Origin: Halostagnicola kamekurae | GTDB lineage: Archaea; Halobacteriota; Halobacteria; Halobacteriales; Natrialbaceae | Direction of reading: 5' to 3' | Length of the DNA stretch: 64,000 nt | NCBI RefSeq assembly: GCF_900116205.1 | Contig: NZ_FOZS01000003.1 | Coordinates: forward strand, 310,001-374,000 | Part shown: piece after piece, positions 15,903-37,492 of the stretch | Numbering within the stretch: position 1 is the stretch's first letter | How the letters are laid out: every line of letters begins with the position of its first letter | Position numbers and translations under genes: made by a program | The notes under the pieces: generated by a model | What the model saw: the letters and a program-made list of their open reading frames with translations, nothing else | Database searches by the model: none | What the model was told of the DNA's origin: nothing

Positions 15903-16463
15903 ATGCTAACGACAGTATCAGTACTCGCGTTCGAGGCCCCGATCGCCGCCGTGTTCGGCGGATTCGAATCGCTCGTTAAATCGGCGACAGGATGGTTCGG
16001 GATGGTGATTATCTTCGTCTACTCGTTTTTGATCGCGTTCGCGCTTCCGGGTCCGAGCGAGGTCGTTCTGGCCGCGCCGCTGGATCTCGGACTCCCCACG
16101 TGGGCTCACTTCTCGAGTATCATGCTCGTGAGTGCGACGGGCAAGGCCGTCGGCAGCGTCCTCGCCTTTCACATCGGACAGGAAGTCGTCAGTTCGGGGC
16201 CGATCACTCGATGGTTGCGAAACTCCCGGTGGGATGTCCTCGAGTGGTCGGAGAATCGCTCCGTGCAACTCGCACAGAAATACGGATACGCCGGCCTCGC
16301 GATGGCTCTCTCGGTCCCGTTTTTCCCCGATACGATTTCGATATACGCGTTTGCCGTCTTAGAGCGCAATTACACGAGATTCGCCATCGCAACTTTCCTC
16401 GGAAGCTTGGGCCGGCTGGTAGTGACGATCGGGTTTTTTGGCGTAGTGGCAGCGTTACTGTAG
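15903..16463 (+). CDS. VTT/DedA-like (SNARE-associated, YqaA-type) membrane protein
   Basis: 186 residues from ATG 15903 (MLTTVSVLAFEAPIAAVFGG); a longer frame from 15786 adds a basic non-protein-like leader. Four to five hydrophobic segments. The DedA/VTT pattern is visible in FLIAFALPGPSEVVLAAPLD, ATGKAVGSVLAFHIGQ, KYGYAGLAMALSVPFFPDT and ATFLGSLGRLVVTIGFFG. These proteins are lipid scramblases/flippases or transport-related in the cytoplasmic membrane. No operon partner; the hairpin array begins about 105 bp after its stop. Confidence 0.8.
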   Translation: MLTTVSVLAFEAPIAAVFGGFESLVKSATGWFGMVIIFVYSFLIAFALPGPSEVVLAAPLDLGLPTWAHFSSIMLVSATGKAVGSVLAFHIGQEVVSSGPITRWLRNSRWDVLEWSENRSVQLAQKYGYAGLAMALSVPFFPDTISIYAFAVLERNYTRFAIATFLGSLGRLVVTIGFFGVVAALL

Positions 16464-16568
16464 TTTCCCTTCCCCGCTTGTGACCGCCTCGATCTCTTGA
16501 GACGGGTGTTACAATTTCGACTGGAACTACTTCTACAGTCGGAGCAGGTTGAGTTCCCTCGGGATCGT

Positions 16569-16668
16569 CCGAAAGACGAAGTCTTTCGGGATCAAGCGAA
16601 CCCTTTGGGTTCGCGGACCTCGCGGGATCTCCGATCCCGCTTAGTGACGAGACGCCTTTGGCGTCTCG
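16569..16668. repeat. Array of four perfect hairpins with about 26-base periodicity
   Basis: Four stem-loops with 3-base loops: 16569-16589 (9-bp stem CCGAAAGAC, loop GAA), 16596-16614 (8-bp stem GCGAACCC, loop TTT), 16622-16640 (8-bp GCGGGATC, loop TCC), 16648-16668 (9-bp CGAGACGCC, loop TTT). The starts are 27, 26 and 26 bases apart, while the stem sequences are unrelated to each other. Between them are unpaired linkers (GATCAA-like, GGACCT, TTAGTGA). The remaining 16464-16883 has no gene; 16740-16870 is AT-rich. Could be the 3' structured end of a decayed IS200/IS605-type element (TnpB/omega-RNA side) or a non-coding RNA. No tnpB homology was detected next to it. Confidence 0.75.
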
Positions 16669-16883
16669 AACCACTTGGCCCTGAGGTTTACAGATAAGCA
16701 AGGCGAGTGACTCGGAGCTTGCATCCGGAGACGATCAAAATAACATATAAAAATACACTAGTACTGTAGTCTTCGAATCGTACTCTGTTGGCTATTACCT
16801 ACAAATATGGCTAAAAGAGGCCTAGAATGACCCAAACACATATATTCAATAAATACAGGTGATATATTTGGGGGCGACATTGA

Positions 16884-17429
16884 ATGGAAAACACACCACT
16901 TTTCGAGGAAAGCACCATCATAGAGATGCTTGCAAATTCACGCCGACGGATATTTTTAGAAGCACTCGCATCCTATGACGATCCGGTTCCACTGAATCAG
17001 CTAGTAACTGATATAATGCGCCTCGAGGATGAGGAGTGGGACGATTCGAGTAAATACCGCAACAGCGTTCGTGTCTCACTTCGACAGAACCACCTCGAAG
17101 TCCTCGAAGCGAACGGACTTATTACGTACGATACGGCGGCAGATCGGATAATCCACGGCGAGGAGTTTCACCGGGTGGAAACCGTTTTACGTTCCCTCGA
17201 GGGAGCGACATCGATGGATCGATCTTCGACGGATCGATCTGATTCCTCACATGAGTTCGTTTATTCCGAAAGGACCGATTCAGAGAGCCAGAGTACCACG
17301 GACGAGCCTGCGCTTTCGGAGGGGTCCCCTCAGAGTGACGGCCTTCGTTTTTCGAACCGATTGCTGCTGATTCTTTGTTGTGCTCTTACAGCGACAATTG
17401 TTGTATTACTGTTATATATACTAATATAA
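16884..17429 (+). CDS. Winged-helix (DUF7344-type) protein with C-terminal membrane anchor
   Basis: 181 residues. Residues 1-100: EESTIIEMLANSRRRIFLEA, LASYDDPVPLNQLVTDI, then VRVSLRQNHLEVLEANGLIT, a winged-helix pattern common in haloarchaeal DUF7344 proteins. A Ser/Asp/Glu-rich linker follows and one transmembrane helix ends the protein (LLLILCCALTATIVVLLLYI). A membrane-tethered DNA-binding protein is suggested. Preceded by AT-rich DNA with several TATA-like stretches; stands alone. Confidence 0.85.
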   Translation: MENTPLFEESTIIEMLANSRRRIFLEALASYDDPVPLNQLVTDIMRLEDEEWDDSSKYRNSVRVSLRQNHLEVLEANGLITYDTAADRIIHGEEFHRVETVLRSLEGATSMDRSSTDRSDSSHEFVYSERTDSESQSTTDEPALSEGSPQSDGLRFSNRLLLILCCALTATIVVLLLYILI

Positions 17430-17845
17430 CTGGTGTTTTTAATATTCGACCCCTGCCACTATCTATAGCAGGCCACACGCCCATCAGCGGCGGGTTCGCC
17501 CGCGTGCTTTCCTAAAGCTGGTTTGACGAAGTCACGGAGATTGACTTTAATTTCCTCGGATTCACCCTTCTAACACGATGATCTCAACTGATTCGCCGCT
17601 ATTCACGAGGGTAGTTTCTACACGCTGAAGCAGAGACCGACGACTAGATCAGACCGTTCAGCTTCGCATGAAACCAGCTCAGACGAAATACAGGAGAAAA
17701 CCCACGGCTTTACAGTAGTTCCTTCGAATCAGCATCTACTGTTTGGCGGTGGGTCGCTCAATGGACGACGAGTCGTCTGAAGGGTTTTGATACCCATGCA
17801 CTAGACGGGTTCCTACGTATCCGCATAGGATGCCAACCGCCACCA
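17430..17845. other. Intergenic region with a possible gene remnant
   Basis: About 415 bases. On the minus strand near 17480-17570 a short open stretch without start codon reads EIKVNLRDFVKPALGKHAGE; I cannot assign it. The inverted run GCGGGTTCGCCCGC lies at about 17489-17502. No complete gene. Confidence 0.4.
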
Positions 17846-37125: not shown

Positions 37126-37492
37126 ATAACCTCACACCATATTGAGCGGAAAGCATACTATTTCTAGAGATGTTAGCAAAAACGCTTGAGTGGTCAGTGG
37201 AACGTTTGAATATACTGCTCTGTTGAATAGTGCCGAGTCATGGTTACAACGGCTCATACAGTGACTCTATGTTGATGAGAGCAAACAGTAGGATGTCAAG
37301 TGCTGTCCACAACGAAGAACGAGTGAACTGCTTCGGGGGTCAAGCCCCGAACTTCCATAGAACCTGATGACGAACTCGGAGGAACGTCCACCGAAGTATG
37401 TAACTCGAGTCCTGAGCAACCGTGCCTCTGGAACGAGGCGAACGAAGTTGTGGTGGGATCGCCTGAATGAATCAACACCGTTAGCGATGATT
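37126..37492. other. Intergenic region, possible old mobile-element scar
   Basis: About 370 bases. Contains a perfect 6-bp-stem hairpin GGGGTC-AA-GCCCCG-like (about 37337-37350). The rest is non-coding; a plus-strand frame (YVTRVLSNRASGTRRTKLWW) has protein-like bits but no start. No identification. Confidence 0.4.

Follow-up and report, generated by a model that had tools for sequence, protein, structure and literature searches.

The 64-kb stretch of Halostagnicola kamekurae DNA analysed here (the window; C3:310001-374000 of genome G000) carries on its plus strand a VTT-domain gene at 15903-16463 (PF09335, E 1.3e-12) and, downstream, a DUF7344 gene at 16884-17429 (PF24035, E 9e-17). Between these two genes, both of which serve here as context, the first-pass annotation had described four perfect hairpins with stems of 8-9 bp and 3-base loops, and an inverted-repeat search finds all four in place. 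Hairpins 1 and 4, with 9-bp stems, occupy 16569-16589 (arms 16569-16577/16581-16589) and 16648-16668 (arms 16648-16656/16660-16668); hairpins 2 and 3, with 8-bp stems, occupy 16596-16614 (arms 16596-16603/16607-16614) and 16622-16640 (arms 16622-16629/16633-16640). When a cluster is defined by perfect stems of at least 8 bp, loops of 3-4 bases and gaps of at most 12 nt, the block is the sole cluster of two or more stems in the window, and 20 first-order Markov shuffles of the window contain none. The four hairpins are real and not a product of chance.

The predicted RNA fold of 16537-16690 lies 4.8 s.d. below dinucleotide shuffles. The earlier annotation missed a fifth, long-range pairing, in which CCTCGGGATC pairs with GGCCCTGAGG and encloses all four hairpins (consensus GCCTCGGGGTC/GACCCCGAGGC). 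Across 20 copies, gathered by sequence similarity and not by structure, 92.7% of the cells in a model of the four hairpins plus the enclosing stem are paired, a level attained by none of 500 shuffles; versions of the model slid along the alignment reach 46% at most. Absence from relatives and uncompensated stem changes had been named as the pattern that would speak against a conserved structure. What is found is the reverse: a family-wide search returns similar stretches in 108 of 125 relatives' genomes, and 19 of the 45 pairs in the 20-copy model have changed on both sides.

The first-pass annotation also overlooked the repetitive nature of the block, which forms part of a dispersed repeat whose borders are sharp. 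With 16440-16800 as the query, essentially just 16532-16690 recurs; the organism's own genome yields 29 matches down to E 10, including about five long copies. Aligned copies start after TCTAC and stop at GAGGCGGTTCAC, and their flanks are unrelated.

Anatomy of a nested element

The block is part of a 155-bp dispersed element (16537-16691, plus strand, borders taken from the copy alignment) that consists of three nested repeats, and is not one RNA gene. Directly 5′ of it, at 16531-16536, lies the target site TTCTAC; its core, TCTAC, precedes nearly all sister copies, and the empty sites of relatives end in TCTAC or CCTAC. The outermost repeat, which we call the shell, begins with a left part at 16537-16564 that contains the 5′ arm of a terminal palindrome (16556-16564) and whose left end is the same as that of a tnpA-tnpB element from the same genus (L254). 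It resumes at 16674-16691 with a loop remnant (CTTGG), the 3′ palindrome arm and a decayed right end, TTTAC, where the copy alignment has the consensus TTCAC. In the window copy this terminal palindrome, GCCTCGGGG/CCCCGAGGC, has been opened at its loop by a hairpin-pair module of 56 bp, O, the left half of which (16565-16591) includes hairpin 1 and the right half (16645-16673) hairpin 4; both halves match R1, a covariance model of such modules. The two halves of O are separated by a second module, I, of 53 bp (16592-16644), which includes hairpins 2 and 3 and belongs to a family also found inserted at codon 23 of tnpA genes. Removal of 16592-16644 from the window leaves TCGTCCGAAAGACGAAGTCTTTCGGGATGACGAGACGCCTTTGGCGTCTCGAACCA, which is the same in 56 of 56 letters as the module in L045, a shell of Halostagnicola larsenii (G018) that has no I. 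Since an identical O thus exists without I, hairpins 1 and 4 belong together, as do hairpins 2 and 3, which lie as a second unit in the centre of the first. The nesting of I in O places two outer hairpins around two inner ones at near-equal spacing, and O and I together fill the palindrome loop with 109 bp.

The shell is, to judge by its ends, a PATE: a gene-less IS200/IS605 derivative that moves as a stand-alone element and is not an eroded IS. Its left end reads TCTAC followed by AGGCGGAGCAGGCCGAGTGCCTCGGGG, and its right-end motif, AACCACTTGACCCCGAGGCGGTTCAC, occurs in 75 of 125 genomes, with none for the reversed control among the matches listed; the motif is biased to module-bearing ends because its AACCA belongs to the module. 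Complete tnpA-tnpB elements (L251-L263) are bounded by the same ends and carry subterminal palindromes, and Pfam confirms in them a Y1_Tnp and a TnpB C-terminal domain. L254 has AGTCGGAGCAGG in common with the window. In these complete elements both palindromes are plain GCCTCGGGGCTTGACCCCGAGG, and the right ends are without hairpin modules. The smallest stand-alone PATE is 48 bp long, and the length without inserts is 46-48 bp.

Insertion of the PATE can be followed in related genomes. A filled site in G070 (L122) reads GTCTAC, 104 bp and then GAACGAATCACG, and the clean empty site in G073 (L139) reads GTCTAC and then GAACGGATTACG. G054 and G052 provide a second filled and empty pair, and L139 and L135 are the empty sites. 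Two copies in G070 (L122 and L123) are 100% identical and have different flanks. These sites point to insertion of the IS200/IS605 type, 3′ of a short target and without target duplication. It is the sister copies that show this; for the window copy, a search of the flanks in G018, which do not align, and of DUF7344 relatives, which are too distant, gave no exact empty site. The element contains no transposase gene; the cognate tnpA is open in L254 of the same genus, and the single Y1 transposase of the organism's own genome is distant (38% identical) and sits in an element with a different right end. The window copy looks inactive, because its palindrome and right end have decayed.

A second PATE, decayed and free of modules, lies directly behind the four-hairpin element at 16697-16733 on the plus strand (its local score is 20, and 1000 shuffles give 11 at most), so that two PATEs stand in tandem. 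Elsewhere in the window, AAGTTCGGGGCTTGACCCCCGAAGCAGTTCAC, at about 37310-37360 on the minus strand, resembles another IS605/PATE right end without modules, and a hairpin, GGCGGGTTCGCCCGC, in the intergenic region 17460-17720 looks by eye like an IS1341 end. In another genome a 48-bp PATE (L078, G088:C1:2082628, minus strand) lies in frame within a gene that reads like a PQQ-type beta-propeller; in relatives an extra 93 bp separates two TCTAC sites, as though the intervening segment had been lost beside the insertion.

Hairpin-pair modules and their insertion into transposase genes

The arms of the PATE palindrome fall into spacing classes of about 5 nt (no hairpins), 59-63 nt (two hairpins), 107-116 nt (four hairpins) and 159-163 nt and more (six or more hairpins). 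In G049, similar tnpB tails lead into one of two ends, with two hairpins in L106 and L107 and with four in L108; relative to L107 the end of L108 has two extra hairpins between the first and the last. Modules of the O and I families, together with others, are also found outside IS605 ends. Precise filled and empty sites of 48, 51, 54 and 57 bp, aligned in tnpA and tnpB genes, indicate that the hairpin pairs are mobile on their own.

The O consensus is TCGTnCG-hairpin-TGATSA-hairpin-CGAACSA, 53-60 bp in length, with a limited vocabulary of stems and freely varying loops. O modules are 99.8% paired, a value that is partly a matter of construction, as only modules with stems of 6 bp or more were chosen. 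The covariance model R1, trained on modules chosen for pairing, matches 60 of 61 Natrialbaceae genomes, with 17 rows in the organism's own genome and 58 in G079, palindromic matches often being counted on both strands. In the window, the four-hairpin block alone is matched at E below 0.3. Among the loci compared, neither O nor I could be tied to a transposase. In three cases (L145, L153, L156) 60-bp O-type hairpin pairs are close neighbours of a tRNA-Ser(tga) gene, a few hundred bases away at most.

Seven tnpA genes (L231 of Natronomonas aquatica, L167, L171, L182, L197, L263 and L268) carry O and/or I inserts in frame. These inserts are double hairpins of 51-54 bp at codon 23, codon 53 or both, and the only stop codons of each frame lie inside them. 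An eighth gene, L293, carries two inserts and no stop, and the nearly identical gene L272 has no insert; among insert-free tnpA genes, 2 of 11 have a stop elsewhere. In tnpB, an O-type insert occupies the position VRKV/RRQ in L305, L272 and L213, and the L305 frame is 424 aa long without the insert and 101 aa with it. Three further tnpB genes (L061, L108, L287) contain three unlike double-hairpin inserts (51, 48 and 57 bp) at an equivalent position in the conserved N-A/A motif region.

The dN/dS of insert-bearing tnpA genes is 0.06-0.16 and is alike in insert-free genes of the same family. Selection after insertion was considered as a reading of these values and dropped, since the inserts are scattered on the tnpA tree (6 changes, against a shuffled mean of 5.9); with this scatter, the dN/dS is accounted for equally well by recent insertions that hit the same site repeatedly. 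Repeated gain, or exchange, at the same tnpA codons is likely from these comparisons. The inserts could also conceivably be removed or bypassed. One form of this idea, which we regard as improbable, is that the hairpin-pair modules resemble tiny mobile introns, which are cut out of the RNA, or translational bypass elements, over which the ribosome jumps. It draws on the recurrent use of the same codons (tnpA 23 and 53, and the tnpB positions), on insert lengths divisible by three and mostly with an in-frame stop, and on the rest of the insert-bearing transposase frames, which are open and constrained in appearance. A bulge-helix-bulge splice site at the tnpA site was considered and set aside, as the flanks seem by eye not to pair. 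The stop-bearing inserts of tnpA genes that are open everywhere else raise a question of their own, that of removal, bypass or repeated recent insertion.

Interpretation and comparison with known systems

The reading that we consider well ahead in probability is that three mobile repeats are packed into 16537-16691 like a Russian doll: a PATE, O in the loop of its palindrome, and I in O. The PATE, in which the left end of an IS200/IS605 transposon is joined to the right end, inserted 3′ of TCTAC with no duplication of the target and was presumably moved as single-stranded DNA by an IS200-type TnpA acting in trans. Comparison of copies then puts O, a REP-like perfect hairpin pair, in the apical loop of the PATE terminal palindrome, and the second hairpin pair, I, at the centre of symmetry of O. 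Complementarity and linkers are kept, and stems and above all loops vary, a pattern that would fit a unit whose folded single-stranded form is what is recognised or copied. A Y1 (TnpA/RAYT-like) transposase would be the natural candidate for the mover of O and I, and since filled and empty sites exist in related genomes, the question of the mover can be tested.

It is possible, though we think it rather doubtful, that the covariation arose with no selected fold, template switching, or conversion of one arm by the other, having kept the hairpins perfect in the course of replication or mobilisation; such a process would complement the nested-repeat reading. Departures from Watson-Crick pairing are balanced, with G-U and A-C counts of 26:20 in the 20 four-hairpin copies and 15:15 in two-hairpin copies, and the stems are nearly always perfect while the loops are variable. 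However, the unpaired linkers TCGT, TGATSA and CGAACSA are equally conserved, which arm conversion does not explain. Because A-C departures are as frequent as G-U departures, the data do not single out RNA over DNA. The suggestion of a structured non-coding RNA is unproved: an Rfam search of the window and related loci gave no relevant match, RF02656 and RF02657 included. Stem covariation, commonly taken to prove a functional RNA, can arise from mobile palindromic DNA.

A role as omega-RNA is unlikely. Under this explanation the block would be a sotRNA-like scaffold, a TnpB right-end stem-loop enlarged by functional hairpins that stands alone and serves TnpB in trans, the guide being the flank downstream of it. 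Homologous right ends with two hairpins do follow TnpB open frames of 431 and 436 aa, overlapping their 3′ ends, and the fold is strong and covaries. Four-hairpin ends also lie behind tnpB remnants (L016, L020, L108, L213), so an omega-RNA scaffold role is possible for some copies; among TnpB genes with such an end, just remnants or contig-end fragments were found. Against this explanation stand the module-free right ends of the tnpA-tnpB elements, the presence of the same modules within tnpA and tnpB frames and elsewhere, the lack of an Rfam match and of a G-U excess, and the TnpBs of the organism's own genome, which are without this end. The nearest of the three candidates in the first-pass annotation was the omega-RNA side of an eroded IS200/IS605 element, with no tnpA or tnpB seen next to it. 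There is indeed neither gene in the window, the nearest tnpB of the contig being at G000:C3:396053, and the block does lie within the palindrome at the right end of an element derived from IS200/IS605, ends homologous to which stand behind TnpB genes elsewhere; the guess fails in that the element is a stand-alone PATE and the hairpins, being loop inserts, are no part of the original omega-RNA side.

It is very hard to credit that the host VTT/DUF7344 region is served by the block as a structured RNA or a protein-binding array, as in the earlier proposal of protein-binding stem-loops after the VTT gene: the block is stably folded and lies between the two genes, but copies occur at unrelated loci, nothing like it follows the VTT orthologue of G018 (81% DNA identity), and bacterial promoter-like and terminator-like patterns, applied to this archaeal host, gave no match. 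Phage records and one viral-contig pattern also gave none.

PATEs, SMR-A repeats and REP dimers are already known; what is new is a PATE loaded with nested REP-like hairpin pairs, which connects these three separately described things. It also offers an anatomy for haloarchaeal small mobile repeats, as two-hairpin units of 51-60 bp that share linkers and not stems, enter the loops of other palindromes and nest. The PATEs of Haloquadratum walsbyi are IS605-related and shrink to 52 bp by deletion between palindromes (PMC3119063). The elements described here likewise have near-terminal IS605-related palindromes, no inverted terminal repeats and no target duplication, and are too short for a transposase; the 52-bp terminal-only versions of H. 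walsbyi match our 48-bp elements. They differ in family and host group (Natrialbaceae), in having cross-species empty sites and in the load of nested hairpin pairs. SMR-A of H. walsbyi, about 110 bp long, inserts within the near-terminal palindromes of PATEs and IS605 elements by a mechanism that is unknown (PMC3119063). O plus I is alike in length, in position and in the absence of target duplication, the comparison being one of descriptions and not of the HqIRS42, HqIRS43 and HqIRS55 sequences; here the unit is resolved into two hairpin pairs of 51-60 bp, which also occur singly and nest.

Bacterial REP dimers, or REPINs, and CGTC-tagged REPs (PMC3116915, PMC3733652) share with the modules 8-9-bp stems, opposed palindrome pairs and heterodimers with unlike stems, and REP dimers also occur inside palindromes and as in-frame insertions in genes. 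Opposed 8-9-bp palindrome pairs in many copies are found here as well, in 60 of 61 genomes, the largest number for a single genome being 58 rows over both strands. The GTAG or CGTC tag of REPs is absent, the ends being TCGT...ACSA, and the modules differ further in being archaeal, in their mostly 3-base loops and 6-nt centre, and in the placement of one pair in the centre of another. CGTC-type REPs have no dedicated transposase known (PMC3733652). Haloarchaeal sotRNA/omega-RNA (RF02656, RF02657; PMC12558985) shares the position at the 3′ end of tnpB with the tnpB-linked relatives, and differs in that our copies have no covariance-model match, can stand alone (with no tnpB in the window) and owe their hairpins to separable inserts. 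Rickettsia palindromic elements (PMC3733652, PMC10969869) are likewise palindromic repeats in frame within coding genes; here, the genes are those of transposases, and the insert often brings an in-frame stop.
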